Source: a virus. From it: DNA of 64,000 bases. Where the stretch lies: positions 30,415 to 94,414 of IMG/VR virus record IMGVR_UViG_3300025012_000053; one strand, 5' to 3'. Below are positions 22,660-64,000 of the stretch, one piece after another (the first letter of the stretch is position 1; every line of letters begins with the position of its first letter). Under the pieces are notes generated by a model. That model saw only the letters and a program-made list of their open reading frames with translations. It was not told the DNA's origin and did no database searches. A program made the position numbers and the translations under genes.

Positions 22660-23192
22660 GTTGCTTTCTCAGTATCTTCGAAAATACCAACTTTACCACC
22701 ACCGCGTATTGACATCTGATCCTCTTCACCATAAATCTTTTTTTCCCATTTCTCAAGATCCTCAACAATAGATCCTACATCTTTCAATGCTTTAGTGGCC
22801 AGGGCCGGGTTATATGATTTGGTATCATTGTCACTATTAAACTTTAAAGCTTCATTGAACTTGATTATTGAATCAACAGTGTCACGTATACTGCGAAGAT
22901 ATCTCATTGATGATGTCTCCTGCAGTTTAATATATTTCTTTATTGCTTCTTCAATAATATCATCAGTTACATATTCCGGATCTTCCATTACTTCCCGGGA
23001 TATCATGGAACGTTTTTCAATACCATAAATATTATACTCACTTTTATAGTCTGCCACAAAATAAACATAGGCGAGTTGTTTGGTCGCTTTTTCTTTATTC
23101 TTTGAAATATCTCTATCCCATATCTTCCTGAACTCCGGGATCAACAGCATCCTGGGTTCTATCGTTACCTTGTTCTGATTGAGAATAAACAT
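22635..23192 (-). CDS. Small terminase subunit candidate
   Basis: 185 residues, largely helical (DDIIEEAIKKYIKLQETSS, LRSIRDTVDSIIKFNEALK). It lies immediately before terL and overlaps it by 25 bp. Size and place fit a small terminase subunit, but no helix-turn-helix is obvious. It also overlaps the upstream HU-like gene by 80 bp. Confidence 0.55.
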   Translation of the reverse strand: MFILNQNKVTIEPRMLLIPEFRKIWDRDISKNKEKATKQLAYVYFVADYKSEYNIYGIEKRSMISREVMEDPEYVTDDIIEEAIKKYIKLQETSSMRYLRSIRDTVDSIIKFNEALKFNSDNDTKSYNPALATKALKDVGSIVEDLEKWEKKIYGEEDQMSIRGGGKVGIFEDTEKATWMTTRQL

Positions 23193-23436
23193 CTTCTATT
23201 GTTTTTTTACTTTTGTTTACAAAGAAATTACGCTTACCTTTTTTCACTTTGAAACATCCAAAATATTCTAATCGCACATAAGGGAAATAATTATTATAAG
23301 AATCAACTTTCTTCATCGTTTCCTTGACCATCTCAAATTCAACAGAGACAATCATCTTAACGGTATTTTTATGTATTCCGTGTTTCTTAGCTATTTCTTC
23401 GCATATGCGATCAATTCGTTTTGAGTGGATGTCCAT
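23113..23436 (-). CDS. HU/IHF-like DNA-binding protein
   Basis: 107 residues. The N-terminal helices (ICEEIAKKHGIHKNTVKMIV) and a beta-rich part with the HU hallmark (VRLEYFGCFKVKKGKR) fit the HU/IHF fold. The C-terminal 30 residues are acidic and encoded over the start of the next gene. An IHF-like gene beside the terminase is typical of crAss-like phages. It may bend DNA for packaging or replication. Confidence 0.7.
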   Translation of the reverse strand: MDIHSKRIDRICEEIAKKHGIHKNTVKMIVSVEFEMVKETMKKVDSYNNYFPYVRLEYFGCFKVKKGKRNFFVNKSKKTIEDVYSQSEQGNDRTQDAVDPGVQEDMG

Positions 23437-23824
23437 TTAACCTGAATGTAAAAGTTAAACTACGATCATCAGCTAATATTACAAATATCGGCTTAATATT
23501 CTTTCCTTCCAAAATGCCAAGATTTCTTAATTGAGAAATATATATATTAAGATGATGCTCCTTCATTTTAAGATTATCACAGATCATCTCCTTTACTTCT
23601 CTTGAAAAAAGCTGAGCAGATCTATCCTTTTCAGGTATATTCTTATACTCATCATTAAAGTAAAGTAGTTGTGCAAGGACTCTCATAGGTTTATCGCTAA
23701 GAGTAGCCTTACGATTACCGGTAATATGCTTGAGCATGGAATCTATAGCCGGCTTCTTGAGGATCAGATACTCGAGAAAGAATTTTTCCCTGGTTGTTGT
23801 GATATTGATATTTTCTGCGAGCAT
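23411..23824 (-). CDS. Winged-helix-like regulator candidate
   Basis: 137 residues. The middle (REVKEMICDNLKMKEHHLN then IYISQLRNLGILEG) reads as a helix-turn-helix with a following wing (FVILADDRSLTFTFRL). It is the first gene after the 23.96-kb promoter and leads the packaging operon. A regulator of late expression is possible. The overlap with the HU-like gene is 26 bp. Confidence 0.5.
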   Translation of the reverse strand: MLAENINITTTREKFFLEYLILKKPAIDSMLKHITGNRKATLSDKPMRVLAQLLYFNDEYKNIPEKDRSAQLFSREVKEMICDNLKMKEHHLNIYISQLRNLGILEGKNIKPIFVILADDRSLTFTFRLNGHPLKTN

Positions 23825-33305: not shown

Positions 33306-33506
33306 TTAACTCATTGAATAATTAAAGATTCTTTTCTTTCCGCTTCTTCTCCTTCTGATAGTAGTTCCATTATGAATGATACTATAGAGGTTATCATTAT
33401 GATCGAAATAAGATATAGAAGTTGCAATAAGATTCATAAACTGAATCTCCTCTACACACTGATAATAGTACTGTCCTGCCTCTTCTATGTAATCAATCCT
33501 TATCAT
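33306..33506 (-). CDS. Small hypothetical protein
   Basis: 66 residues, not recognised. Tyr and Ile rich N-terminus, basic C-terminus (TTIRRRRSGKKR). It abuts the membrane protein gene and overlaps the gene before it by 4 bp, as expected for a true member of the operon. Confidence 0.5.
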   Translation of the reverse strand: MIRIDYIEEAGQYYYQCVEEIQFMNLIATSISYFDHNDNLYSIIHNGTTIRRRRSGKKRIFNYSMS

Positions 33507-33856
33507 TTTACTTCTTTAAAAAAATCATCAAATCCACTACCATCTCTCTTATCCGGCTGCCTGGTTTCTCTCCGGACTTTAACTTGCTCAGATTGCTTTA
33601 TATGTTCAATAGGTCCGGTATTATCGTTACTTCTTACTTCTCGTCTTTCGATTCGTCCGACTTTCTGTATTCGTTGTTTTCCCCGGACCAGATCTGAACA
33701 TCCACAGATTACCGATTCATCAACATAGAGTACATTACCATTAATGAACCAACCTCGTATCTTGTTATACGATATACCTGAAAACTCTTCCAGGGCACGG
33801 ATGTTTGTGCTCTGGATGAATCTCCGGGTTTGTATTTCGTAGTAAAAAAATGTCAT
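33503..33856 (-). CDS. Hypothetical basic protein
   Basis: 117 residues. The N-terminal 50 residues (ALEEFSGISYNKIRGWFING) have a helix-turn-helix-like look, and the rest is basic, low in structure, and ends with an aromatic-acidic tip (GFDDFFKEVK). A small DNA-binding protein is possible. Confidence 0.5.
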   Translation of the reverse strand: MTFFYYEIQTRRFIQSTNIRALEEFSGISYNKIRGWFINGNVLYVDESVICGCSDLVRGKQRIQKVGRIERREVRSNDNTGPIEHIKQSEQVKVRRETRQPDKRDGSGFDDFFKEVK

Positions 33857-35286: not shown

Positions 35287-35596
35287 AATCCTATTCCTAA
35301 TCGTTTAAGTTCATTCTCCTGGTTCTCGTCCAGCAGTTGACAAATAGGTCTGCCACTTTCAGCCTCAACAGCATTCTTATTAAACTTCCAGAAGAGAAGT
35401 ATCTTATATGCTTCTATGTTGTGTCTTACAACAGCTCCTGACATATCATGCCAGGGCTCCTTATACTCTTCCTTCGTGATAACTGGTATTAAGTACCACT
35501 TACCAAAGCGCTTCCTTACATAAGAGGTGATTGTAACCTGGCCACTTTTGGTTTAATCAGGATCTTATGAAGTTCTTCTTTTGTAATCTTTGCCAT
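35283..35596 (-). pseudogene. First gene of the leftward operon, broken by a frameshift
   Basis: The ATG at 35594-35596 starts MAKITKEELHKILIKPK, but this frame soon stops. From the same point another frame continues for about 80 codons (GQVTITSYVRKRFGKWYLIP, AVVRHNIEAYKILLF) and ends in an ATGA overlap with the next gene. Restoring one A in the CCAAAA run would join them into a protein of about 104 residues. Function unknown. A slippage-prone A run means either true mutation, programmed slippage or a sequencing error. Confidence 0.6.
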
Positions 35597-35599
35597 AAC

Positions 35600-35614
35600 T
35601 TTACACTATGTATT
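35600..35614. promoter_or_regulatory. Operator-like palindrome 1
   Basis: TTTACACTATGTATT fits the TTTAC-N5-GTAAA family. It lies between the predicted transcription start and the ATG at 35596. No partner is seen 31 bp away. Confidence 0.5.
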
Positions 35615-35630
35615 TTTTAATTCATCAATA

Positions 35631-35638
35631 CAAAGATA
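35631..35638 (-). promoter_or_regulatory. Leftward promoter -7 box
   Basis: The minus strand reads TATCTTTG (consensus TAnnTTTG), 35 bp before the first leftward ATG. The expected -33 site falls inside palindrome 2 and is not TTTG, so this promoter may need an activator or be blocked by whatever binds there. Confidence 0.5.
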
Positions 35639-35654
35639 AAACAGAAAATAACAA

Positions 35655-35700
35655 TTTACGGCATGTAAAATGATAAACTTATCAACACACGGCATGTAAA
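35655..35700. promoter_or_regulatory. Operator pair 2-3 over the leftward promoter
   Basis: TTTACGGCATGTAAA (35655-35669) and CACACGGCATGTAAA (35686-35700) have centres 31 bp apart and share the core ACGGCATGTAAA. The first covers the -33 region of the leftward promoter. Confidence 0.7.
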
Positions 35701-35767
35701 GTAACATTCCCCTGTACATAAGAGCACCCACCCCTTTATCTGTAAACCCCCGCCGTCTTCAGCTGGT

Positions 35768-35791
35768 CCCAAAAACACCCCCACCCCACCC
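35768..35791 (-). other. G-quadruplex motif
   Basis: On the minus strand four G tracts (3, 4, 5 and 3 G) are separated by loops of 1, 1 and 7 nt, which meets the usual G4 rule. It stands between operator pairs 2-3 and 4-5 in an otherwise AT-rich genome. Confidence 0.65.
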
Positions 35792-35804
35792 TTATTAACA
35801 ATAA

Positions 35805-35850
35805 TTTACAGACCGTAAAGTTATCATTACATTAATTTACACCACGTTAA
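35805..35850. promoter_or_regulatory. Operator pair 4-5
   Basis: TTTACAGACCGTAAA (35805-35819) and TTTACACCACGTTAA (35836-35850) have centres 31 bp apart. They follow the terminator of the gene at 35901-36224 and lie upstream of the leftward promoter. Confidence 0.7.
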
Positions 35851-35852
35851 AT

Positions 35853-35881
35853 GAAAAAACCCTTCCATTTCTGAAAGGGTT
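35853..35881 (-). terminator. Terminator after 35901-36224
   Basis: On the minus strand AACCCTT pairs with AAGGGTT around a 10-nt loop and is followed by a run of T. It separates the gene at 35901 from the leftward operon. Confidence 0.75.
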
Positions 35882-35900
35882 AGAAACAGTCTTTTAATGA

Positions 35901-36224
35901 TTATTCTTCAAAGAAACAAAAAAACACATCTACCGTTTTTCCATTATCCATGATATAACACTCTGCTTTTGGCAAAATAAGTAAGTCGTTTTTTAAACAA
36001 CGATCTTCATCATATATATTAACTTCGGAGACAGTAAATTTCTGTGTACCTGAAGTTTCTACCATATCGCCAAGAATCCAGGTATCTGAATTCTTTTCTT
36101 TTGTCTTAGCGGCAATACAATGATCGGAACTAAAATATTCCTTATGAACAATTGAATCCCCATTTAGAATGTGGGTTTCTGCCTGACCTTCAAGGTCTGT
36201 AGTGACTACTTTTAATGTTAACAT
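35901..36224 (-). CDS. Hypothetical beta-rich protein, single-gene unit
   Basis: 107 residues, beta-rich (LKVVTTDLEGQAETHIL, TWILGDMVETSG, TVDVFFCFFEE) and not recognised. It has its own promoter-like -7 box at 36278-36285 and its own terminator, so it is regulated apart from the late operon. An early or switch-related role is possible. Confidence 0.6.
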   Translation of the reverse strand: MLTLKVVTTDLEGQAETHILNGDSIVHKEYFSSDHCIAAKTKEKNSDTWILGDMVETSGTQKFTVSEVNIYDEDRCLKNDLLILPKAECYIMDNGKTVDVFFCFFEE

Positions 36225-36277
36225 GATTTCTGATTTTTAATGATTACTACTAATTCTATTTCGACTGCTTCTAAATA

Positions 36278-36285
36278 CAAAGATA
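36278..36285 (-). promoter_or_regulatory. Promoter -7 box for 35901-36224
   Basis: The minus strand reads TATCTTTG, about 54 bp before the ATG. A TTG lies 22 bp further upstream, a slightly long spacing for the Bacteroidetes consensus. Confidence 0.45.
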
Positions 36286-36299
36286 AACAATTAATCCAA

Positions 36300-36545
36300 A
36301 TAACATTCAATGGCTCCGCGCACATTACACCCCAAACAAGCCGATAAAAACCACTCCCCTATACCTCATGCGACCAGAGAAGCCCCAGGGGGCAACCATC
36401 CTCAAAAAACCAGATGAACGACCTGGATCAATCCCGGGGATATATCAGAACACGCGTAATGCCTCACCAAACCCCGGTATGTCTCTGCTCCGCAGGGCCT
36501 CCCCCGTGGTGCTTCCGCAGGACTCTTCCAAACGGAATATAGATA
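36300..36545. other. GC-rich non-coding island
   Basis: About 245 bp clearly richer in G and C than its surroundings, between divergent genes. It has short inverted repeats (GCCCC/GGGGC at 36382-36393, CACCA/TGGTG at 36465-36511). Reading frames of 60-odd codons exist on both strands but have unconvincing composition and no neighbour coupling. It may be a structured leader RNA, an origin element or recently acquired DNA. Confidence 0.4.
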
Positions 36546-36579
36546 TGGAGGAAAATAATTAAACCAATACATTATTATT

Positions 36580-37011
36580 ATGAATGAAGTTAGTATTAGC
36601 AACTTTGCTAAAGGTATGACAAGTTCACCAATAGGACAAAGGACTGTTTTACCACAGGGAACTCATTACAGGTTTGAGAAGAAAAACAATGATTATAATA
36701 TCATTGTGGAAATTGCACCTAAAGTATGGCAGGCCGTTAAAGATAGTAACGGCAAATTTACTTACTTTGATGCTGTCAGTAAGTCAGAGAAACCAATTCC
36801 AACGGATTCACGTTGGATAATGCTTAACACCGGGTTTGAACAGACAACAAAGAAAACCATTGATACTTCAGTAACTTTGGATTTCAAAGATGTACCGCTC
36901 AAATCAGTGTTAAGAATGAAAGTTACCAATGACAAAGGTTATTCAAGTCTTGATCTTGTACCTTTGACAACTAAGGAACTGAAAGCACTGACGGCAACAG
37001 AGATTAATTAA
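36580..37011 (+). CDS. Hypothetical early protein
   Basis: 143 residues, beta-rich with Lys and Thr (TSSPIGQRTVLPQGTHYRFE, SLDLVPLTTKELKALT), not recognised. It is the first rightward gene and a terminator follows at once, so it forms its own unit within the control region. Small proteins at such spots are often regulators or anti-host factors. No direct evidence supports either here. Confidence 0.6.
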   Translation: MNEVSISNFAKGMTSSPIGQRTVLPQGTHYRFEKKNNDYNIIVEIAPKVWQAVKDSNGKFTYFDAVSKSEKPIPTDSRWIMLNTGFEQTTKKTIDTSVTLDFKDVPLKSVLRMKVTNDKGYSSLDLVPLTTKELKALTATEIN

Positions 37012-37016
37012 GAAGA

Positions 37017-37038
37017 GGGGAGAAATCCCCTTTTTTTA
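37017..37038 (+). terminator. Terminator after 36580-37011
   Basis: GGGGA pairs with TCCCC around GAAA (37017-37030) and seven T follow. It lies 6 bp after the stop codon. Confidence 0.75.
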
Positions 37039-37061
37039 TATTATCAGCTGCTTAAGGTTAA

Positions 37062-37107
37062 TTTACATGCCGTAAAGTTATTATTGCATTAATTTACACT
37101 ACGTAAA
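37062..37107. promoter_or_regulatory. Operator pair 6-7
   Basis: TTTACATGCCGTAAA (37062-37076) and TTTACACTACGTAAA (37093-37107) have centres 31 bp apart and nearly perfect arms. Confidence 0.75.
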
Positions 37108-37131
37108 GTGATATTGTCTCTAATATAATAT

Positions 37132-37145
37132 TAAGGTATACCTTA
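37132..37145. promoter_or_regulatory. Perfect 14-bp palindrome between operator pairs
   Basis: TAAGGTATACCTTA reads the same on both strands and lies midway between pairs 6-7 and 8-9. A longer inverted repeat (ATTATCAGC at 37040, GCTGATAAT at 37187) encloses it and pair 6-7. Confidence 0.5.
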
Positions 37146-37200
37146 TTATATATAGGTGTGCTTTTTTATTACTATTACTGCTCAAGGCTGATAATGTCAC

Positions 37201-37246
37201 TTTACACTGTGTATTTTAATATTATTGTTAATTTACACGGTGTATT
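37201..37246. promoter_or_regulatory. Operator pair 8-9
   Basis: TTTACACTGTGTATT (37201-37215) and TTTACACGGTGTATT (37232-37246) have centres 31 bp apart. The right arms read GTATT and not GTAAA, so this pair is weaker. Confidence 0.65.
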
Positions 37247-37252
37247 GTGATA

Positions 37253-37444
37253 TTAACTAATAATACAAACTATACCTATATATATAGGATATAATTCAGG
37301 ATTGTCTTTTATTAATTGATCCAATTCTGTTTGATTAAGAATTTCCTTTTCAATTAATATACCCTGTTGATTATCAATAAGAATAATATATTTTCTTTCA
37401 ATAATCAATGTTTTCTTTCCTTGTAATAAGCTTTTTGTTTCCAT
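37253..37444 (-). CDS. Small protein in the control region
   Basis: 63 residues (LIIERKYIILIDNQQGILIE, LNQTELDQLIKDNPELY), not recognised. A TATCTTTG -7 box lies 20 bp before the ATG, which supports expression. The stop is 7 bp from operator pair 8-9. Confidence 0.5.
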   Translation of the reverse strand: METKSLLQGKKTLIIERKYIILIDNQQGILIEKEILNQTELDQLIKDNPELYPIYIGIVCIIS

Positions 37445-37463
37445 GATATATAATATTAGAATT

Positions 37464-37471
37464 CAAAGATA
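37464..37471 (-). promoter_or_regulatory. Promoter -7 box for 37253-37444
   Basis: The minus strand reads TATCTTTG. No TTTG is found at the expected -33 distance. It stands back to back with the strong rightward promoter at 37481-37512. Confidence 0.45.
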
Positions 37472-37480
37472 ATGCTATTT

Positions 37481-37512
37481 TTTGTTTATACGGTGATTAT
37501 GCATTATATTTG
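37481..37512 (+). promoter_or_regulatory. Rightward host-type (Bacteroidetes) promoter
   Basis: TTTG (37481-37484), a 20-bp spacer and TATATTTG (37505-37512) match the Bacteroidetes consensus completely. Transcription should start near 37519. That rules out a GTG start at 37512 for the next gene. Confidence 0.75.
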
Positions 37513-37541
37513 TGCAGTTGGTCATGTTTAATATAATTGAA

Positions 37542-37769
37542 ATGAAGAGAAAAACACATTATTATGTAGTAATAGATCTATATGATCTACGTAAGACTAC
37601 AATAGAACAATCAAAGATTCAAGTATCTGTAATGGTTGGAAAGCATCGTAATACTATTGATTTTGAACAAGATAACATATATGGACACTATCTTGTTCTT
37701 CCCAGATACATAAAAAGTAGATATATTAATCCACCTCCAGGAAGAATACAAAATCTAATACATAAATAA
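37542..37769 (+). CDS. Small early protein
   Basis: 75 residues from the ATG at 37542, chosen because the promoter before it would start RNA near 37519. Sequence: MKRKTHYYVVIDLYDLRKTT, then basic and Tyr-rich. Not recognised. It lies between the strong promoter and operator pair 10-11, so it could be the switch regulator, though no helix-turn-helix is clear. Confidence 0.55.
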   Translation: MKRKTHYYVVIDLYDLRKTTIEQSKIQVSVMVGKHRNTIDFEQDNIYGHYLVLPRYIKSRYINPPPGRIQNLIHK

Positions 37770-37777
37770 TTATTAAC

Positions 37778-37823
37778 TTTACACTGTGTAAATTTACATA
37801 TACAACAAAATACACTGCGTAAA
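37778..37823. promoter_or_regulatory. Operator pair 10-11
   Basis: TTTACACTGTGTAAA (37778-37792, a perfect 15-bp palindrome apart from the centre) and AATACACTGCGTAAA (37809-37823) have centres 31 bp apart. Confidence 0.75.
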
Positions 37824-37859
37824 GTGATAAATAAGCTGGCTTTTTATTTAATAATATTA

Positions 37860-38220
37860 AGCAATTATTGTCATATAAGCTGTAATATTATTGACTGGTA
37901 AACAGTGCGCAAAGCGCCATTCTACCTACATTTGATGCTTTTAAGCCTCTGAACAGTATATCTGAGATACCATAGAGTGTTATTGGAGATATATACTCTT
38001 TATGTATCTATCATAAGTATATTATGGATAAAAGATGATATTAGTTAAAATATCTACATTTGTTATTAATTACAATCTACGCTCAGATTATGATACCACA
38101 TGATGATCTTATGAGTCCTGAATGAAAAGGGTGCTGTAAAGTCAGGATAGCAGCTAAAAGATAATTCTCATCCAAGAGCCGGTTCAATCAGGGGTTGCAA
38201 CCTTGTGAGTATTATCTTTA
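37860..38220 (+). ncRNA. Possible structured leader or non-coding RNA
   Basis: No gene is seen in 37824-38256. Several pairings are visible: GCGC-AAA-GCGC at 37907, AGTATATCT with AGATATATACT (37955-37996), TCCTGA (38116) with TCAGGA (38142), and AAAGATAATTCTCA (38157-38170) with TGAGTATTATCTTT (38206-38219, 13 of 14 paired). The last encloses GGTTGCAACC. The density of pairs suggests a folded RNA before the small-gene operon. I could not match it to a known family. Confidence 0.4.
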
Positions 38221-38256
38221 TTTAGTCAATAGAATATTAACTTAATATTATATGTC

Positions 38257-38466
38257 ATGAAAATTATTGAAATTACTGATGGCTTTCTCAGTGAAGAAAC
38301 TACTCTTAAAGTGGCTATTACTGAGCTTCTTAAGGAAAGACAGGATACATTTAATAAGCTTAAGAAAGCTAATCCTGCTTTTGTTCCTAATCAGCATTTG
38401 TATATGGCTCATATTAAGAACTGTAAATCATTACTTAAAAAATTAAACAATAAATATATGTCATGA
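38257..38466 (+). CDS. Small helical early protein
   Basis: 69 residues, mostly helical (TTLKVAITELLKERQDTFNK), not recognised. It starts a run of four tiny genes linked by short overlaps, the typical layout of phage early operons. Confidence 0.55.
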   Translation: MKIIEITDGFLSEETTLKVAITELLKERQDTFNKLKKANPAFVPNQHLYMAHIKNCKSLLKKLNNKYMS

Positions 38467-38669
38467 AAAAACCATTTAACTTTCGTAATGTAGATCCAGA
38501 CAGAAAATGTCTCGATTGTAATGTTCCTCTTAAGCTTAATTTGTTATCTAAGAATCCAAATGCCTTAAGATGTTATACTTGTAATACATTGAAATCCAAT
38601 AATCTTAATATTAATCGTATAAGATTGTTAGAAGTTCAAAAACATAATATACTATCTTATAAGCCATGA
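38463..38669 (+). CDS. Small zinc-ribbon protein
   Basis: 68 residues. CLDC at 17-20 and CYTC at 37-40 form a Cys4 zinc-ribbon. The rest is basic. It overlaps both neighbours by 4 bp. Such ribbons often bind nucleic acid or RNA polymerase. Confidence 0.6.
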   Translation: MKKPFNFRNVDPDRKCLDCNVPLKLNLLSKNPNALRCYTCNTLKSNNLNINRIRLLEVQKHNILSYKP

Positions 38670-38878
38670 CTGCTAAAGACATTAAACTTGCTATGAGTTG
38701 TGAGCATAACTATTTATGGTCATGTAAACATAACTCTTCATATGGCCAGGATTGTACCGGACCATGTAAATACTGTACTTCTATTCAGCTCTTTACAGAT
38801 AGTATTATTTGTCCTATATGTGATAATCCTGTTGAATCAGGCTATTGTGTTAATCTTAATTGTGTTAATCATGGCTGA
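38666..38878 (+). CDS. Small Cys/His-rich zinc protein
   Basis: 70 residues with many Cys and His: CEHNYLWSCKH, CTGPCKYC and a C-terminal CPICDNPVESGYCVNLNC ribbon. Probably binds two zinc ions. Role unknown. Confidence 0.6.
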   Translation: MTAKDIKLAMSCEHNYLWSCKHNSSYGQDCTGPCKYCTSIQLFTDSIICPICDNPVESGYCVNLNCVNHG

Positions 38879-39110
38879 TATAATCAATAACTTTGATCTA
38901 TTGAATTATGGTAAAGACATAATTCTCTGGCAATCACCCGATAAGCCTCATAAATCTCTTGTTTATCATACTCAGGTTATATTATCCGGAATTAATATTG
39001 TTTCAATGATATCTACATTTAGAGTTATTGATGCCCTGGGAAAGATAAGATATTCAGGATATCATCTTAATCTTGCTGTTCAAGCTTATAATAAGCTTTA
39101 TAATGAGTAA
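38871..39110 (+). CDS. Small early protein
   Basis: 79 residues from the ATG at 38871, which overlaps the previous stop by 8 bp. A longer reading from 38700 would overlap almost all of the zinc protein and is rejected. Pattern: LLNYGKDIILWQSP, YHLNLAVQAYNKLY. Not recognised. Confidence 0.55.
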   Translation: MADIINNFDLLNYGKDIILWQSPDKPHKSLVYHTQVILSGINIVSMISTFRVIDALGKIRYSGYHLNLAVQAYNKLYNE

Positions 39111-39142
39111 TTTGTTTATATTATAGATAAATCTTGATTGTT

Positions 39143-39412
39143 ATGACTATTGATGATGATTTTTTTAATAAGATCAACAGTATCTGGATGAACAACATAA
39201 ATCAGAGATCTGGTAAAACACAAAGTATCCGTGATATTATTAATGACAGATATGGAATACATAATGATCGTGTAACTCCACATTATTCATTATTCTCTAA
39301 ATCAAGATTAAGGAAAGATCTTCAGACTCATGATAAGATCATAATATTCAGATTTTTTTATAATCTGCGTAATCCAATTGATATTAAACCATTTGAACCT
39401 TTAATTTTCTAA
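39143..39412 (+). CDS. Small early protein
   Basis: 89 residues from the ATG at 39143, preferred over a TTG three codons earlier. Basic, with IRDIINDRYGIHNDRV and a helical end. Not recognised. Confidence 0.55.
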   Translation: MTIDDDFFNKINSIWMNNINQRSGKTQSIRDIINDRYGIHNDRVTPHYSLFSKSRLRKDLQTHDKIIIFRFFYNLRNPIDIKPFEPLIF

Positions 39413-39431
39413 ATTTAATAATGTCACACAA

Positions 39432-39869
39432 ATGAAAAAAACATTTCTTATTTTAACGTTATTGTGCCTTACATTCGTTTTAAGCGCACAGGACTATGAA
39501 CTATACAAATGTTCCAGATCAGGATTTCGATACAAAAATGATAATAGATCCTGGTCACAATGGGCATTTTCTGAAGTCGATATGATATTACGGCTTTGCA
39601 TCAAAGAGAATAAACTGGAATTTAATAATAATAATAAAACAGTTTTTTATTTTAATTCTAAATTATTAAATGAATCAGGTGTTGACAAGGATAATGATAA
39701 ATGGACAAAAGTAATATGGTCCGGATTTGATGATGATGGTCTTAAATGTAATCTTGTTTCAATTGATTATCCAGAACTCACTAATAGAAACTTTGTTCTG
39801 GAATATTTTGATTATGAATTTATCTTTGAATGTATAATTCTTAACCCATTTAAAAATACATCAATATGA
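39432..39869 (+). CDS. Secreted protein with signal peptide
   Basis: 145 residues. MKKTFLILTLLCLTFVLSAQ is a clear signal peptide with cleavage after SAQ, a style common in Bacteroidota. The mature part is Asn, Asp and aromatic rich and not recognised. It overlaps a membrane-protein gene by 4 bp. The pair may act at the envelope, perhaps blocking superinfection, which is inference. Confidence 0.6.
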   Translation: MKKTFLILTLLCLTFVLSAQDYELYKCSRSGFRYKNDNRSWSQWAFSEVDMILRLCIKENKLEFNNNNKTVFYFNSKLLNESGVDKDNDKWTKVIWSGFDDDGLKCNLVSIDYPELTNRNFVLEYFDYEFIFECIILNPFKNTSI

Positions 39870-40168
39870 AAACATTAATTTATCTTTTCTTCGCTATTAT
39901 CGGGCTTATATGTGCTATTTGCTCGATTGCTATACTTTCTATTCATCCTGTTAATTGTGTTCAGGTTGTAGGACTTCTTTCATTAGCAGTCTTCTCTATG
40001 GCTTCTATGATGATCTTTGGTTATGCATTCTATCATCAAGTTAAAGAAAATCGATTATATGACCTGGCAGCCAAAGAACAACTTGAGAATGATTGGTATT
40101 ATTACGAATTACAATGTAATGAACAGTTATTCAAAGTTGGTAAAGAAAGTTTTGAAAATATGAATTAA
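39866..40168 (+). CDS. Two-span membrane protein
   Basis: 100 residues with membrane segments at about 4-26 and 33-55 and a polar, acidic C-terminal part. Coupled to the secreted protein before it. It could be a holin-like or superinfection-exclusion protein. The sequence does not decide. Confidence 0.55.
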   Translation: MKTLIYLFFAIIGLICAICSIAILSIHPVNCVQVVGLLSLAVFSMASMMIFGYAFYHQVKENRLYDLAAKEQLENDWYYYELQCNEQLFKVGKESFENMN

Positions 40169-40170
40169 TA

Positions 40171-40216
40171 CTACACTCTGTAGATTTATTTGCTTTTGTT
40201 ATCTACAGGATGTAAT
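40171..40216. promoter_or_regulatory. Operator pair 12-13 at the tRNA promoter
   Basis: CTACACTCTGTAG (40171-40183) and TACAGGATGTA (40204-40214) are divergent members of the palindrome family with centres 32 bp apart. The second overlaps the -7 box of the tRNA promoter. Confidence 0.55.
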
Positions 40217-40220
40217 TTTG
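40189..40220 (+). promoter_or_regulatory. Host-type promoter of the tRNA unit
   Basis: TTTG (40189-40192), a 20-bp spacer and TAATTTTG (40213-40220) match the Bacteroidetes consensus completely. RNA would start near 40227 and include the hairpin, the tRNA and the following RNA up to the terminator. Confidence 0.7.
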
Positions 40221-40250
40221 TTTATGATTTGGGGCTTTACTCATGGTTGG

Positions 40251-40292
40251 TTTGACAGTATAACCATCTTAGGTAAGTAAAAAACTGTCAAA
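40251..40292 (+). other. Inverted repeat just before the tRNA
   Basis: TTTGACAGT and ACTGTCAAA form a perfect 9-bp stem around a 24-nt loop, ending 1 bp before the tRNA. It may serve as a processing signal for the tRNA 5' end. Confidence 0.5.
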
Positions 40293-40293
40293 T

Positions 40294-40366
40294 AGTCCTT
40301 TGGTGTAATTGGCAACACATTAGATTTTGATTCTAAGGAGTTCAGGTTCGATCCCTGAAGGGACTA
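40294..40366 (+). tRNA. tRNA-Gln (anticodon UUG)
   Basis: Full cloverleaf by eye: acceptor AGTCCTT/AGGGACT, D arm GTG/CAC with GG in the loop, anticodon stem TTAGA/TCTAA with loop TTTTGAT (anticodon TTG), T arm TCAGG-TTCGATC-CCTGA. CCA is not encoded. It reads CAA and by wobble CAG. The anticodon is not CUA, so it is not an amber suppressor. Confidence 0.9.
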
Positions 40367-40384
40367 CAAATAATAATATACTCT

Positions 40385-40545
40385 TAATTTGGATGGACCA
40401 TAGAAATATGCCATATTAAGGAAGGGGAACAGTCCAGTTCCCCGAGAGCTACCGGCCATATAGTCAGTCTTCTGTTGGTGACATAGCAGACAGCTGGTAT
40501 CACTTGGAGCTGCGGCCCGGGATAATATCCTGGGCCTTTTCTTTT
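40385..40545 (+). ncRNA. Possible structured RNA downstream of the tRNA
   Basis: No gene in this stretch. Hairpins seen: AATATG/CATATT (40405-40417), GGGGAAC/GTTCCCC (40424-40443), CAGCT/AGCTG (40491-40512), then a strong terminator. The tRNA promoter would transcribe it. I do not recognise the family. Confidence 0.45.
40514..40545 (+). terminator. Terminator of the tRNA/ncRNA unit
   Basis: GGCCCGGGATA pairs with TATCCTGGGCC (one mismatch-like wobble, short loop) and is followed by TTTTCTTTTT. Strong Rho-independent terminator. Confidence 0.85.
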
Positions 40546-43016: not shown

Positions 43017-43598
43017 ATGTATGATAACTTATTATATCGTCAGATAAAAGATGTTCCTATTGCTGTTATTCAGGAAAAAGTATCAGAAGCAACAAAAATT
43101 CCTTTATCCTTAATATTACTTGGAAATAAAGCACCAGGAGCAAGGAGAAAAGAATATGTTATGGCAAGACAGATATCTATGTATCTTTCTAAAGATCTTA
43201 CCAGATTTAGTCTCGCTGTCATTGGTGTTGAACATGCCGGCAGGGATCATGCTACAGTATTACATTCAATAAAAACTATTACTAATTTTATCGACATAAA
43301 TGATCATGATGTAACATTGAATGTAAAAAAATCTATAGATCTTATCAGAACATGGAATAATAACAGGCCAGATAAAATAAGACAACCTACCCTTAAAGAA
43401 CTTATACGTAAAAAGAAATATCTTTCTTATGATATAAAGGTTGTTAACGAACAAATCAATGCTTTACTTATGCCTAATATTCCAGGTAAATCTAAACTTG
43501 TTAAAACATGGATCCTTAATAAAGTTCCTCTTGATGTCAGACAAAAACTTCTTTTAATTCTTGTAAATATAAAAAATTATGAAAGCAAAAACTATTGA
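43017..43598 (+). CDS. Stand-alone DnaA domain IV (DNA-binding) protein
   Basis: 193 residues. Residues 43-88 match the C-terminal DNA-binding domain of DnaA: RRKEYVMARQISMYLSKDL then SLAVIGVEHAGRDHATVLHS, including the DnaA signature with RDHATV. No AAA+ ATPase precedes it. The C-terminal 90 residues are basic and helical and not recognised. It may bind DnaA-box-like sites at the phage origin or compete with host DnaA. It opens the nucleic-acid module. Confidence 0.85.
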   Translation: MYDNLLYRQIKDVPIAVIQEKVSEATKIPLSLILLGNKAPGARRKEYVMARQISMYLSKDLTRFSLAVIGVEHAGRDHATVLHSIKTITNFIDINDHDVTLNVKKSIDLIRTWNNNRPDKIRQPTLKELIRKKKYLSYDIKVVNEQINALLMPNIPGKSKLVKTWILNKVPLDVRQKLLLILVNIKNYESKNY

Positions 43599-46469: not shown

Positions 46470-46832
46470 ATGAAAGACGAACTATATAAAAAGGTATTTA
46501 TCCACAGTGAAGAGGATTTGCCAGAAGTAAAGGACAATTATGTTATAAAAGAAAAATTAAGAGTATATCCTACAAATTATACTTTTGATCCTTTAAGTGA
46601 ATATGATAAAAAAACACTATTATCAATAGTTAACTGGTACTTACAGCCTATTTCTCAGCCAGAGTTAAGCAACGACAAAACCATTATAGAGAAGATGGAG
46701 GAGCTGATAGCTTATTATGACTTAGAATATTGTCCTTTAGCATCAAAATCAATTACATTTAGACTTATTGAAAAAGGTAAAAATAAACTTAAAAGAGAAC
46801 TATCATCACTGAAGGATAAGAGTAATAACTAA
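46470..46832 (+). CDS. Hypothetical early protein
   Basis: 120 residues, helical C-terminus (FRLIEKGKNKLKRELSSLK), with aromatic and Pro-rich middle. Not recognised. Confidence 0.55.
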   Translation: MKDELYKKVFIHSEEDLPEVKDNYVIKEKLRVYPTNYTFDPLSEYDKKTLLSIVNWYLQPISQPELSNDKTIIEKMEELIAYYDLEYCPLASKSITFRLIEKGKNKLKRELSSLKDKSNN

Positions 46833-59325: not shown

Positions 59326-59723
59326 ATGAAGTATTAAGTCATGATATGAAACTTCTTGGATTACATATGCCATATGGTGATGATCCGGAGACACCTATTC
59401 TTTGTAGTTACTTTGATGAATTACCGGACCATTTTACCAAATGCCTTAATTTCCGGGATCTTTATCGTCTTAAAAAACATAAAAGAAGCGATAATAAAGA
59501 TAATCTTGAGATCTTTGAAGGGCTTGATGTACTTATTCATGTACAATCAGAAAGTAGATATTATTACCGGATATTACAACCCTATACAGACATGAATAAA
59601 ATGCTTAAATATTTTAAAGATGGTAATCTTTATATTCTAAAGGATGAGCTCAGACAAAAAGAAGAACCGGTTGAAGAACCGGTCCCTGAAAAGAAAGTTG
59701 ATGATACAGAATTGTTGTTTTAA
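59322..59723 (+). CDS. Hypothetical protein, last early-strand gene
   Basis: 133 residues, acidic C-terminus (EEPVEEPVPEKKVDDTELLF) that resembles SSB-like protein-binding tips. Not recognised. It overlaps the preceding gene by 4 bp and meets the opposing giant gene tail to tail with a 4-bp overlap and no terminator in between. Confidence 0.6.
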   Translation: MNEVLSHDMKLLGLHMPYGDDPETPILCSYFDELPDHFTKCLNFRDLYRLKKHKRSDNKDNLEIFEGLDVLIHVQSESRYYYRILQPYTDMNKMLKYFKDGNLYILKDELRQKEEPVEEPVPEKKVDDTELLF

Positions 59724-62700
59724 CGCCATTTATTAGCCCAATGTTCAGTCCACCATGCTTCTGTCTGTGATGCATTTTGCAATTTCATTGCCATATCATG
59801 CCAGGCAGAAGCATATGGTACGGATCTCATAAACTCATTCCAGCCTCTTAACTGTCCTTTCTGAGTGAAAGCAGATTCTTTATCTCCAAGTGCAAGGTTT
59901 GCTGAGGCAAGCATCATCTGACCAAATGCTTCAGTAAACTTAAATGCTCTGGCAAATGATACAGGTCTTGTTACTGTCTCCATTGTACGAAGCATCTCTA
60001 TAGGATTATACTGCTGTGACTGGTTCTGTATAATATAATTCATCCACCATTTTTTAAATGTATCATCATCGTCTTTGTCATCGAATAATGCTAAATAACC
60101 AGCATATGAAAGAGCTATCATTCCAATACTGAGAATAGCATCGACAATATTCTGTTTTTGTTCTGTAGATAATGAACTCCATTTATAATCAGGACTACCA
60201 ATTTTAAGAGCTGTAAGAATAACATTAATAAGTGTTCTCCATCGTCCTTCATTAGTTCTTGCAAGCCATTCATACACATCCATCTTCTCTCCTGTTACTG
60301 GATCTATACGTGATTCTTCCATCTTTTTATATGTTCCAAGATCCACCTCTTCGCGTTTACTGCCAAGGGCATTTATTACAAGCCTCATGAAATATCTCTT
60401 AAACTGGACAAAAGCTTTCCCAAGCACATACAGTTCCAGGTTGGCAGCTTCTTCCTTGCGATATCCCCCCTGCATTCTTTCATGTACTTTCTTTAGTTTT
60501 GCTATCTCATGACCTGTTAATTCTGTTATCGGTGTATAAGATGCTGCACCACTCTTACCTGATTTTTCATATCCCCTGGTACCACCTATCCAGTAAACAT
60601 CTGTTATTCCATTTTCTGTTCTTACCTCATAAGAATCCCATAATGACTTTCCTGTCTTGGGATGCTTAAGATGTTTCATCTGGGCTGTCATAGTAGTAAG
60701 TGATACATATTCTTCACCTATACTATAAAATTTATACATTGATGATTCTGATAATGCCTGGTTACGAGTAGATAAAAGAAACCTTCTGTTAGTAGCATAA
60801 TCATAGTTATCAGGGATGTAATTTAATTTCCTTGCAAGCAGGAACATCTTATTCTTACGAAGATCTCCTATCATTGCATCTTTTATAAATGATCCCCAGT
60901 ACACTCCATCAGCAAAAGCATTATCCGATACTGTAAAGTCAATAGCATCGCCATCTATATGAAGGAACTTGCTTGCTATCGTACCTTTAAGTGCCTCTCT
61001 ATGGGTAAGCATCTTGGCAAATATAGCATTACCGGTACCCTGAACAGGTCTTAACCACATTATAGAAGCACTTGTCCAATGGACTAATGCTTCAAGGATC
61101 TTATCAGGAGATATATTTGCTTTGCCAAATGTTATAGGCTTGCCGGTATATTTAATTGGCTCTACCCTATTTTGAATATCAGCAATAAGCTTCTTCTCAA
61201 GAAACTTAGCAGTATTTTCAAACATAGGTTGACCATTGGAATACTTCTGCAATTCAAGATATACTTTTAATGCTTCTCCAACTACATATACATTATCCAT
61301 ATACTGTTTATGTAACATTGACTTATTGAACTGATCGAACATATATACTGCATTCTTGGTATAGTTACGGTCATTGATAACTATAGGATTATCCATGTAT
61401 TTCAAAGGAAGAGACATGGTAACATCATTATACATCTCAAACTCCTGTTCCGTGAACCATGTAAACTGTCTCTTGGCAGCTTCTTTTATTCTTTTAGCTG
61501 AAAATCGTCCAATAATATTAGCTCCCATTATATCACCATGTCCAGGAATCTTTCCAAGAATCTTTGCTCCCTCTTCATAATTTATTTCTTCATAGGTCTT
61601 CATAGTTTTTGGAAACCATCCGGGATAATATTTCATCTTACTCTCTTCTGTCTTATTCTTATTGAATATATCGAGCCAGGAATAAGACTTACCTTTCATT
61701 ACTGTAGCCTGCTGATTAAGATAAGCTTTTTCTCCAACGAACCATGAAGCAAATGTATTATTAAGAAACGTAAGAAGATCTTGCTTATTCTTATTAAGTC
61801 CTTTCCATTCCGGATCTGTTTCTGTTAATAATCTTTCTTCTTTAACTCCATTCTTTTCGAATTCTTTATACATAAATCCAAAGAGCTCTGCATAATTAAC
61901 ATTAGCCACCCTGCTATATCCTCCCCTGGAAATATTTAACTTTCCTTTCATATACTCTTTAAGAATAGGTTCTACAAATGTATTGAGCCTGAGAAGATCC
62001 ATTTCATGTTTCTGGGTATATGCATTCCATCTCTCATTACGTATTTTTACCCAAGGCTGGAATATTCCCATGTTAACATCAGAATAGTTACCTATCCATT
62101 GTGTTGCCCATCCAATATCTCCCTGTGGATATACATCGAGCTGCAGGGAAGGATCAGATTTTATATGCGCTATCTCTCTATAGAGCTGTGCAAGCCTTTT
62201 CTTTTCCCATTCCGGAAGCTCATCAACACGTATCTTCCTGTCAGTTACAAACTTTCCAAGTATTATCTGGATCTCATTTACTCTTCTTCTATATTCTTCT
62301 TCAGGGCGAAAAGGTGAATCTTTAAGGTTCTCGAATAATTCATCACCTGCCTTATCGGTATATTCTCCTACATTAAATATCTTAGGACTCTTTTCAAGAA
62401 TCTTCTTCATAACATTAGGATCAATACCAGCATCTTTAAGAGCCTGTTTGTCATTAAGGAACATCTTTATCATACTCAGGTATGATGATACTTCAACAAA
62501 CCTGTCCATGTCTTCTCTTTCAGCAACAAATCTTCCCGGGACCCATACTGTCATAAGATCCCTGAATTTCATATCAGGAAACTCAAGCTTGTAAAGGAAT
62601 GCATACCACATAACCTGAAGCTTTGCTCTCTCTCTCTGATTGTCTGAAATATATATATCCTGAATACCATATTTCATTGCTTCAGCGTTGAATCTCTTAC

Positions 62701-64000
62701 CAAAATTCTGACCGGTCTTCCAGTCTATAATACTAACTTTACCATCTGAATGGAATATCATAGAGTCTGTCGTACCGCCTATACCAAGGAGCTCACTATA
62801 TATTGATTGTTCAGGTAAAGCTATTATATCTCTCAAAGCATCAGGGAACCTACCAGGATCTTTAAGTATGTTCACTCCTGCCTGACTTAATATACGGTCC
62901 TGTATGCCTTTATCTTCAAGCCAGGAGTAATGTTCCGGCCTGGTTGACCCTTCACTCATGGATGCAATATCATTCATCTTCTTGAGTATATCTGTTTCAT
63001 TATACCCGAGATTGAATATCTTATTAAACATCTTCTTGAAATAAAGGTGCATGATATTACCTTTTATCATACCCTGCATAAAGTCTTTCTCTCTTCTCTC
63101 TTTGTATTGGTCATAGTTCTGCTCAATACCATCAATAGTAAATTTATGATCATGAGGCACTGTTCCCCAGCGAAGATCTGCCATATGCTGGCCAAAAGAT
63201 ACATTAGGATCAATTTTTGTATTGCTGAACCATGACATTGCACCGCCTACATTATCAGTGATCCTTCTTATCTTACGTGTAATACCATTAACAGAATATG
63301 TTGAAAGCTCTCTTCCTGTAGCATCAGTATCTACTTTTACCCTGGATGATATCTCCTGAATCTTCTTAGCACGCTCCAATACAGCCTTTCTGACCTCATC
63401 CACGTTCGTTGCTACTACCGATTCCACTTCTACCTCAAAAGGCATAGAAACCTTACTATATGCCTTTTGAGGTAGACTACGGAATATCTCTCCTTCTTTA
63501 GTAAATGATGGAGTATAAGGACTATGAAGTATTATCTGCAAGAAATCATATGACAAATCCTTTCCTATATTAAAGAATTCAAGTATCTTGTCTATAATCT
63601 TTCTCAGTAATGACTTCTCTTCTCCTTCTCTTTTGACCCGGTTCATTATCCTGGCAAACTCATCATTAGATAACAGTTCAGCTATAAATTCTTCTTTTGT
63701 CCTTAATCCCATAAATAACATAAGATCCTTTGTTGATGTATCAGGATCATAACCGTTATCAACAAGATACTCCTGTATTGCAATTTTAGCATGAGGAAGC
63801 GATATTAGATTGCCTGTCTTGCTATCTATGCTAAAGTGTTCATTTATAAGAGCCATTATATCTTCACTAAATTTAGCATCTTCAAGCAAACCAAGTACCG
63901 ATAATCCATGAACTATCTCATGAAAGAGAATCCTGTCTATCTTATCAATGTCAAGCCGACCATCATCTTCATAAAGGTTAACAAGATCAAGAGTTATATT
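59720..64000 (-). CDS. Giant polyvalent protein: HExxH protease motif and PD-(D/E)XK nuclease (5' end outside window)
   Basis: At least 1,426 residues. The frame is open to the right edge, so the true start lies outside. The first visible part has ILFHEIVHGLS, an HExxH zinc-protease motif (codons near 63920-63935). Counting from a TTG at 63889, residues 277-430 form a RecB/Cas4-like nuclease: GNIMH, SELLGIGGTTDSMIF (D375), VSIIDWKTG (D389, K391), QVMWYAFLY. The next 900 residues are mostly helical with one hydrophobic stretch near 1270 (ILSIGMIALSYAGYLALF). Such polyvalent proteins are injected with phage DNA. The TTG is not needed as a start. Confidence 0.8.
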   Translation of the reverse strand, partial: NITLDLVNLYEDDGRLDIDKIDRILFHEIVHGLSVLGLLEDAKFSEDIMALINEHFSIDSKTGNLISLPHAKIAIQEYLVDNGYDPDTSTKDLMLFMGLRTKEEFIAELLSNDEFARIMNRVKREGEEKSLLRKIIDKILEFFNIGKDLSYDFLQIILHSPYTPSFTKEGEIFRSLPQKAYSKVSMPFEVEVESVVATNVDEVRKAVLERAKKIQEISSRVKVDTDATGRELSTYSVNGITRKIRRITDNVGGAMSWFSNTKIDPNVSFGQHMADLRWGTVPHDHKFTIDGIEQNYDQYKERREKDFMQGMIKGNIMHLYFKKMFNKIFNLGYNETDILKKMNDIASMSEGSTRPEHYSWLEDKGIQDRILSQAGVNILKDPGRFPDALRDIIALPEQSIYSELLGIGGTTDSMIFHSDGKVSIIDWKTGQNFGKRFNAEAMKYGIQDIYISDNQRERAKLQVMWYAFLYKLEFPDMKFRDLMTVWVPGRFVAEREDMDRFVEVSSYLSMIKMFLNDKQALKDAGIDPNVMKKILEKSPKIFNVGEYTDKAGDELFENLKDSPFRPEEEYRRRVNEIQIILGKFVTDRKIRVDELPEWEKKRLAQLYREIAHIKSDPSLQLDVYPQGDIGWATQWIGNYSDVNMGIFQPWVKIRNERWNAYTQKHEMDLLRLNTFVEPILKEYMKGKLNISRGGYSRVANVNYAELFGFMYKEFEKNGVKEERLLTETDPEWKGLNKNKQDLLTFLNNTFASWFVGEKAYLNQQATVMKGKSYSWLDIFNKNKTEESKMKYYPGWFPKTMKTYEEINYEEGAKILGKIPGHGDIMGANIIGRFSAKRIKEAAKRQFTWFTEQEFEMYNDVTMSLPLKYMDNPIVINDRNYTKNAVYMFDQFNKSMLHKQYMDNVYVVGEALKVYLELQKYSNGQPMFENTAKFLEKKLIADIQNRVEPIKYTGKPITFGKANISPDKILEALVHWTSASIMWLRPVQGTGNAIFAKMLTHREALKGTIASKFLHIDGDAIDFTVSDNAFADGVYWGSFIKDAMIGDLRKNKMFLLARKLNYIPDNYDYATNRRFLLSTRNQALSESSMYKFYSIGEEYVSLTTMTAQMKHLKHPKTGKSLWDSYEVRTENGITDVYWIGGTRGYEKSGKSGAASYTPITELTGHEIAKLKKVHERMQGGYRKEEAANLELYVLGKAFVQFKRYFMRLVINALGSKREEVDLGTYKKMEESRIDPVTGEKMDVYEWLARTNEGRWRTLINVILTALKIGSPDYKWSSLSTEQKQNIVDAILSIGMIALSYAGYLALFDDKDDDDTFKKWWMNYIIQNQSQQYNPIEMLRTMETVTRPVSFARAFKFTEAFGQMMLASANLALGDKESAFTQKGQLRGWNEFMRSVPYASAWHDMAMKLQNASQTEAWWTEHWANKWR

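Follow-up and report, generated by a model that had tools for sequence, protein, structure and literature searches.

In operator clusters of the lambda type, cooperating dimers occupy neighbouring palindromes at divergent phage promoters. The array of thirteen palindromes that is the subject of this analysis lies within a 64,000-nucleotide stretch of viral DNA ('the window', positions 30,415 to 94,414 of the 94,414-bp IMG/VR virus record IMGVR_UViG_3300025012_000053), and it differs from the lambda arrangement in the fixed 31-bp spacing of its pairs, in its extent (six pairs and a singleton over 4.6 kb) and in an unrelated candidate regulator. The operators and 'stoperators' of cluster A mycobacteriophages are alike in that one repressor serves many sites, at promoters and in intergenic spaces, but stoperators are described, in the accessible part of the source, as asymmetric 13-mers that are bound by monomers, oriented with transcription and distributed genome-wide (PMC9283540), whereas the present array is palindromic and confined to its short region. 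Set beside that description, the array has the intergenic location and lacks both the asymmetric, oriented site and the genome-wide spread. The boxes of the bacterial regulator NrdR resemble the array in that they consist of two tandem palindromes about 31-32 bp apart in promoter regions and are thought, in the text available, to be bound by dimers (PMC2892513); the phage array differs from them in sequence, in the associated genes, in the absence of NrdR from the record, in the presence of several pairs in one region and in the placement of pairs at gene ends. The array belongs to neither the NrdR boxes nor the stoperators.

The phage itself is, judged by its terminase, crAss-like (Crassvirales). 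TerL shares 42% identity, across 95% of its length, with that of Culoivirus cr55_1 (Crassvirales), and TerL matches were found in 156 phage records (uncultured 57, Bacteroides 32, Flavobacterium 29, Cellulophaga 9, and others); the portal, terminase and major head proteins matched head-and-packaging PHROGs, the direct comparison with crAss-like phages being of TerL only. A run of structural genes, which includes a DUF5131 gene, the gene at 33503 and those for terminase, portal and capsid, extends leftward from about 35.6 kb, genes for replication and repair (a DnaB-type helicase, a DnaA-C protein and a DNA repair protein) run rightward, and the array is found at the point where these two arms diverge. 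The crAss-like group is described as incapable of lysogeny, unlike lambda (PMC8375218, accessible text). According to the part of a Crassvirales review that was available, the virion RNA polymerase reads early and middle genes in these phages and the host enzyme probably the late ones (PMC10136315), so that a regulator of host-type promoters heading the structural arm would control late timing. How that switch from virion to host polymerase is made has not been worked out; a term search of the main text of the same review returned neither 'promoter' nor 'operator', and no description of crAss-like operators was found in the open-licence literature among the matches listed.

A switch protein encoded by the phage probably binds the thirteen palindromes. 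Judged from sequence, there is a reasonably good chance that they are, more precisely, operators through which a dimeric phage protein controls the divergent region, mainly as a repressor. All thirteen palindromes of the TTTAC-N5-GTAAA type that had been proposed in an earlier note on this DNA were found at the centres given there, as five pairs spaced exactly 31 bp apart (pairs A to E), a sixth pair (F) spaced at 32 bp and a singleton (Table 1). The exact word TTTACNNNNNGTAAA occurs in five copies and nowhere else in the window. Matches with at most two mismatches are only mildly raised over the window as a whole (74, versus 56.4 +/- 7.2 in shuffled sequence), and the enrichment is therefore local. 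When a symmetric 21-bp position weight matrix (PWM) trained on the thirteen copies was scanned over the whole record, its thirteen best matches were those same copies (15.1-24.5 bits) and the next real match reached 10.8 bits, in agreement with the earlier statement that the window holds no clear copies elsewhere; because the matrix was trained on the sites themselves, its absolute scores are inflated, and it is the gap to the next match that is informative. Simulated first-order Markov records contained on average 1.0 site of at least 12 bits (20 simulations, best single score 18.6), versus thirteen in the real record, all within 4.6 kb (35.6-40.2 kb). Matching pairs at random positions in coding DNA had been named as an observation that would speak against such a system, and none of the thirteen 15-mers overlaps a coding base (by a gene set chosen by hand, which accounts for 91.7% of the window and 58% of positions 35,300-40,500).

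The commonest form of the motif is AATTTACAC-N-GTGTAAATT, and its strongest positions are TAC...GTA. In several copies one half or both halves are degraded (GTATT at 35607, 37208 and 37239; CACAC at 35693; GTTAA at 35843; AATAC at 37816), and the most divergent copies are those at 40177 and 40209. Pairs B and C are recent duplicates of each other (their spacers are 87.5% identical) and hence provide no independent evidence for the 31-bp spacing. Hairpins acting at the level of RNA were dropped by judgement, the 5-bp, A/T-rich arms being expected to fold poorly.

Relatives of the phage of this window (G000) were sought in IMG/VR via gene 33856, terminase alignments, the 37542 family and a conserved non-coding element. 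Besides a near-identical contig (L009, the contig of L005, 3300025010_000084; identity with the window 99.995% across 20,255 bp), which carries the array, the region is present in four records, all four of which carry related sites at equivalent places. G006 (3300037137_001111; TerL 82%) has seven sites (L143 9549, 9603, 9634, 9719/9750 and 10901/10931), of which 9634, judged by eye, is half-degraded and the last pair lies past the stop of the 37542 homologue, like pair E. G012 (3300034342_000005; TerL 79%) has six (L172 4705, 4748, 4778, 5886 and 8420/8451), two of them (4778 and 5886) first spotted by eye, and its last pair lies between the gene in 39866's place and tRNA-Gln, like pair F. 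G002 (3300029286_000340; L125; TerL 72%) has four (332, 373, 432 and 463) in the homologous leftward promoter, its contig beginning in the control region so that the right side falls outside it. The most distant relative, G013 (3300033388_004609; TerL 60%), has seven between 37.2 and 43.7 kb, built on the word ACAAACTAGC-N5-GCTAGTTTGT and mixtures with ACAAATTTAC, the weakest at 38746 and 41320; two more matches above threshold outside that stretch (26814 and 76550) were left uncounted, and the same threshold was passed by up to four matches in each of six simulated records. Since it was a search of terminase-related records for the pair that first drew attention to the region in G006 and G012, the sites there are no blind test; synteny was verified afterwards by genes.

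In the whole 21-kb record of G006, on which it had not been trained, the window matrix ranked the sites at record positions 19900, 18749, 19930, 18602 and 18548 first to fifth and 18718 sixth, with 18633 reaching only 7.1 bits. In G012 it ranked 42451, 42420 and 39886 first to third (21.5, 19.7 and 15.9 bits) and left 38705 and 38748 amid chance matches (11.7 and 11.5 bits); a matrix built from four G012 sites placed all six ahead of every other match in the 65 kb (next 12.8), including the two on which it had not been trained, 39886 at 20.1 and 38778 at 17.0 bits. Wider searches added little. An exact pair pattern (spacer 14-18) was found in nine viral and 57 genome stretches, among which L009 was, by the matrix, the sole array of the viral nine; one genome stretch (L032) had six matches 16 bp apart at a contig end, and the others of the 57 had zero to two matches of at least 12 bits. 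No array was found with the window, G013 and G002 matrices in 26 terminase-related loci between L128 and L166, most of which seem to end before the region (as was shown for some); these loci gave five single matches of 15.4-15.5 bits. Homologues of 33503 were present in L157, L158 and L159, and homologues of its neighbour in L129 and L135, all near the start of a contig or locus. The whole record of G001, one of whose proteins is 68% identical, also has no array, an absence that says little because its TerL match is just 24%. When six records and 40 kb of Culoivirus cr55_1 were searched de novo for palindromes coupled at 20-59 bp, two 31-bp couples were found in the window's own record and single couples at 24, 33, 36, 43 and 52 bp in others; there were none at 30-32 bp elsewhere, the site-bearing relatives included, and the filter was so strict that these negatives are uninformative.

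The sites hold fixed positions relative to promoter elements. Bacteroides-type promoters consist of TTTG at about -33 and TAnnTTTG at -7, according to the accessible text of PMC7366714. In the leftward promoter, the centre of the proximal palindrome precedes TAnnTTTG by 24 bp in G000, G006 and G002 and by 23 bp in G012. A -33 TTTG should start at this place, and none of the four phages has TTTG at a fitting gap upstream of that -7 box (G012 has TTG at gap 19, inside the operator). The earlier note had placed a copy on the -33 region of this promoter; the placement holds in four phages, with the correction that there is no TTTG at -33 and the operator stands there instead. The promoter of gene 37542 does have TTTG, at gap 20. 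Upstream of tRNA-Gln, G000 and G012 both read TTTG-N20-TAATTTTG; one site closely precedes the -33 element and its partner extends into the -7 box, so that the overlap claimed for the tRNA promoter was seen in two phages. In G013, TTTG-N19-TAnnTTTG is found at three promoters, in two of which the operator centre lies 31 bp upstream of the -7 box with TTTG (gap 19) at the end of the proximal arm; one of these two is directly upstream of the 33503 homologue. An arm of the G002/G013 motif can itself read TAnnTTTG, for which reason matches at offset 4 may be by-products of the motif and were not counted as promoters. Overlap with the -33 position in four phages and with the -7 box in two, together with related sites in four relatives, lends good support to the suggestion of a dedicated phage operator system. 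At the place where G000 and G012 have a single tRNA-Gln, the control region of G013 has six tRNA genes (L173 8301-8765: Pro, His, Arg, Leu, Leu, Gln), with operator-like sites on both sides.

Twelve pairs could be compared in four phages, and nine of them are spaced at 31 bp, two at 30 bp (the leftward pair of G012, 38748/38778, which is 30 bp in its better register, and one pair of G006) and one, pair F, at 32 bp. Mean identity was 69% at the core positions of the arms and 51% in the spacers (45 equal-length comparisons, with orientation chosen by arm identity, a choice that favours the arms); spacers being less alike than arms, the spacing seems to outlast the spacer sequence, and a separation of about 31 bp would suit two dimers bound to the same side of the helix. 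Sites outside such pairs are 35607 in the window, L143 9549, L172 4705 and 5886, G002 332 and 373 (41 bp apart) and all seven in G013, which are single, with one couple 63 bp apart. The earlier note would have taken the idea as refuted if close relatives had lost the spacing: it is kept in the three closer relatives (G006, G012 and G002, at 30-31 bp) and lost in the most distant, G013, and pairing is a feature of a sub-lineage, not of the whole group.

What the sequences show is the sites with their positions, conservation and geometry; from these we infer the binding of a protein, the sign of its effect and its identity as follows. One dimer would occupy each palindrome of 15-25 bp, and two dimers 31 bp (about three turns) apart would lie on the same face of the helix and cooperate. 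At the leftward promoter, the proximal site would replace the -33 element, its distal partner lying 31 bp beyond it and a third site on the downstream side, and binding could shut off or gate the leftward run from the DUF5131 gene and 33503 through terminase, portal and capsid; at the tRNA-Gln promoter, the pair would bracket -33 and cover the -7 box. The pairs at gene ends (B to E) might act as roadblocks or looping anchors, or might lie on unrecognised promoters of the virion RNA polymerase. Repression is favoured as the sign of control, since polymerase should be blocked by a protein that occupies the -7 box of a promoter with both elements.

For the protein itself, 25 window proteins were tested for matches in the four relatives, and those matched in all four were 33503 (with a helix-turn-helix, HTH), 23411, 23113 (HU-like, PF00216), 24467, 24015, 22635 and TerL. 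The family of 33503 is preferred as the binder because it lies in the leftward gene run of all five site-bearing phages, because an operator site stands directly upstream of its homologue in G013, because it gave no Crassvirales match among 50,697 phage records, and because its putative recognition helix appears to have diverged with the operator: by eye, the helix reads YNKI or YHKI in G000, G006 and G012, YHTL in G013 and YTWL in G002, and differs most where the operator differs most. The assignment is tentative, with somewhat less than an even chance of being correct; were it right, the 33503 protein would repress its own operon. Among the binders suggested at the outset, 33503 is now the front-runner, whereas the 37253 product has no detectable homologue in the relatives and the 37542 product has one in G006 only (the G002 contig does not extend that far). 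The 37542 product gave no Pfam match, and its structure model (pLDDT 41) was unusable.

The N-terminal domain of 33503 was modelled as strand-strand-helix-helix-strand-strand, an HTH arrangement, with 10-residue pLDDT means of 83-90 over residues 1-50 and 64.6 for the whole model (three sequences), and most homologues end in an FDDFFK-type C-terminal tail. Its best structural neighbour was the DNA-binding tail of the homing endonuclease I-HmuI (PDB 1u3e; Z 4.6 over 54 residues, root-mean-square deviation 3.2), a middling score that may reflect a common arrangement only. That tail is of the NUMOD/IENR type. Any likeness would be one of fold, and the phage protein differs in having neither a nuclease domain nor a NUMOD1 sequence match (the profile PF07453 gave none up to E 10 in the record). 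A Foldseek search with the model returned nothing at E below 0.001, and a PDB sequence search with the family gave one row, at E 0.12, which was ignored. Among six homologues, Pfam gave weak HTH matches, each in a single member (HTH_10 0.024, LacI 0.036, MerR 0.058, HTH_23 0.065 and HTH_17 0.12), as well as two non-HTH matches; the window's own protein matched no Pfam family. No role of NUMOD or IENR1 domains in transcription regulation was found in the open-licence literature among the matches listed.

MotA of phage T4 is an activator at middle promoters, and by analogy the palindromes could be activator sites, where a protein in the -33 position would replace the missing element and recruit host RNA polymerase to late promoters. 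The site is indeed centred at the -33 position, the 70 bp that precede the leftward -7 box contain no TTTG in G000, G006 and G012, and the only near TTTG of G002 is at gap 12; but the same kind of site lies on the -7 box of a tRNA-Gln promoter that possesses both elements in two phages, operators of G013 lie on promoters with a -33 TTTG, and the -33 motif was, in the available part of the source, not found in RNA-seq data of Flavobacterium johnsoniae (PMC7366714), so that its absence is not decisive. An activator is on these grounds unlikely. A replication origin, in which the palindromes would serve as iterons or initiator sites where the two gene arms meet, would accord with a cumulative GC-skew minimum at 36-38 kb, with the DnaA-C domain protein at 43017-43598 (PF08299, 2.1e-16) and with a GC-rich non-coding stretch (36.3-36.56 kb) between pairs. 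Skew follows gene direction, however, and is confounded with it, the window contains a single TTATNCACA DnaA box (at 46498), the thirteen sites are palindromic and are not DnaA boxes, and neither the fixed distance to promoter elements nor the pair at the tRNA promoter 3-4 kb away is explained; the iterons that the earlier note had offered as its alternative are accordingly improbable.

The spacing of NrdR boxes, given above, is what recommends a host regulator of that type, which would bind palindrome pairs 31-32 bp apart. No NrdR box was found in the window by the consensus pattern, TIGR00244 had no match in the virus record (a host copy could still exist), and the motif drifted between related phages alongside the putative recognition helix of 33503, all of which makes such a regulator very improbable. 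Sites for partition or packaging, or borders of gene cassettes that can be exchanged, are if anything harder to credit: pairs do lie close to stop codons and on either side of small genes that some relatives have and others lack (G006 lacks 37253 as well as pairs C and D), but the fixed distance to promoter elements would again be unexplained, and the part of the record's proteins that was scanned included no partition protein.

Several observations weigh against reading the sites as operators of a phage repressor. Pairs B to E, which lie just past stop codons or terminator-like hairpins, are not on any recognisable host-type promoter, and a leftward promoter without a -33 TTTG could also be served by a substituting activator. 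The twelve compared pairs were hand-picked for spacing near 31 bp, other close neighbours being 41, 43, 54, 55, 59 and 63 bp apart, and the single sites and different motif of G013 mean that pairing is not universal. In G002, site 373 scores 20.0 bits by the window matrix and the others 7.9-9.3, below or amid chance matches, so that they rest on a shared G002 word and on position. A sixth contig (L158), which has a 33503 homologue at 1630, shows no site of at least 15 bits by three matrices over 12.4 kb; its first 1.6 kb upstream are coding, and the control region may lie off the contig. With respect to the binder, 23411-23824 (no Pfam match) and the HU-like 23113-23436 are as widespread as 33503, in all five phages, and the DnaA-C protein at 43017 was matched in two relatives, G012 and G013, with G006 and G002 ending before its place.

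If the sites are the operators of a phage repressor, the array would provide a concrete, short operator set at late-side and tRNA promoters, with four related phages as natural variants and a single named candidate for the regulator, and, if binding is as proposed, an orthogonal operator/repressor pair for Bacteroidetes genetics. A broader proposal, doubtful as a whole, is that a small stand-alone DNA-binding domain of the homing-endonuclease type (the 33503 family) is the central switch of an environmental crAss-like lineage, in which it would read three-turn palindrome pairs and gate the late genes and the phage tRNA, operator and recognition helix having drifted together to give each phage its own specificity.

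Table 1. Sites, promoter elements and genes of the control region (window coordinates; hairpins and the HTH-like stretch of 37542 judged by eye)
Feature	Position	Strand	Remarks
Single site, centre 35607	35600..35614	.	Downstream of leftward -7 box, abuts first leftward ATG (35599)
Equivalents of 35607 site			54 bp (G006) and 43 bp (G012) from proximal site
Leftward promoter -7 box TATCTTTG	35631..35638	-	No TTTG at -33 position
Pair A proximal, centre 35662	35655..35669	.	On -33 position, 24 bp upstream of -7 box
Pair A distal, centre 35693	35686..35700	.	Outer half degraded
Pair B first, centre 35812	35805..35819	.	
Pair B second, centre 35843	35836..35850	.	Adjoins terminator-like hairpin of gene 35901-36224(-)
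Pair C first, centre 37069	37062..37076	.	Past terminator-like hairpin of gene 36580-37011
Pair C second, centre 37100	37093..37107	.	
Pair D first, centre 37208	37201..37215	.	
Pair D second, centre 37239	37232..37246	.	6 bp past stop of gene 37253-37444(-)
Pair E first, centre 37785	37778..37792	.	Best copy, 24.5 bits; 8 bp past stop of 37542-37769
Pair E second, centre 37816	37809..37823	.	G006 equivalent pair L143:10901/10931
Pair F first, centre 40177	40170..40184	.	Just past 39866-40168 stop, upstream of tRNA promoter -33 TTTG; G012 equivalent L172:8420
Pair F second, centre 40209	40202..40216	.	Right arm overlaps -7 box; G012 equivalent L172:8451
tRNA-Gln promoter TTTG-N20-TAATTTTG	40189..40220	+	Spacing identical in G012
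tRNA-Gln (TTG anticodon)	40294..40367	+	
Candidate regulator, 117 aa, HTH	33503..33856	-	In leftward gene run
Small 75-aa protein, HTH-like stretch	37542..37769	+	Between pairs D and E; homologue in G006 only

Within and around the control region, the first leftward open reading frame past the promoter (ATG 35599; window 35300-35599) ends after 26 codons, and an alternative frame in the same stretch is open for about 90 codons past an A-run (a frameshift, a sequencing error or a decayed gene). At the head of the rightward genes, some 400 bp (window 37830-38250) are gene-free and, by eye, partly similar to L143 10945-11660 in G006; the stretch has no Rfam match above the gathering score and is possibly a leader or a small RNA. 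Over the region, Rfam gave five rows, and the tRNA alone reached the gathering score.

Further afield, a leftward open reading frame of at least 3589 aa (L006 1-10767) runs off the contig start, and a leftward frame of 1389 aa lies at the opposite contig end (window 59720-63889). The record may be a circle opened inside a giant gene, or the second frame, which matches an exonuclease PHROG, may instead be a separate gene. The TerL genes of several relatives (L136, L154-L159 and others) match partly or over a longer span, which suggests introns or inteins. G012 encodes, at L172:11232-12860, a protein of 542 aa in which (N/D)Q(V/I) recurs 46 times as a short tandem repeat, and the same stretch is also open in further frames on both strands.

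A GC-rich non-coding element occurs once per genome (window 36455-36520; G006 19115, G012 39367, G013 43054), about 80-150 bp upstream of the first rightward gene, with the sequence AACCC..GG.ATG..TCTGCTCCGCAGGGCC; in a pattern scan of viral contigs, these relatives and the near-identical contig were the only matches. The element includes a hairpin with a loop of three bases; the hairpin reads CTGC-TCC-GCAG in three phages and CGGC-TCC-GCCG in G013, where both sides of the stem have changed. The virion RNA polymerase of phage N4 uses hairpin promoters, which this element recalls, and by that analogy it could be an early promoter or an origin element.

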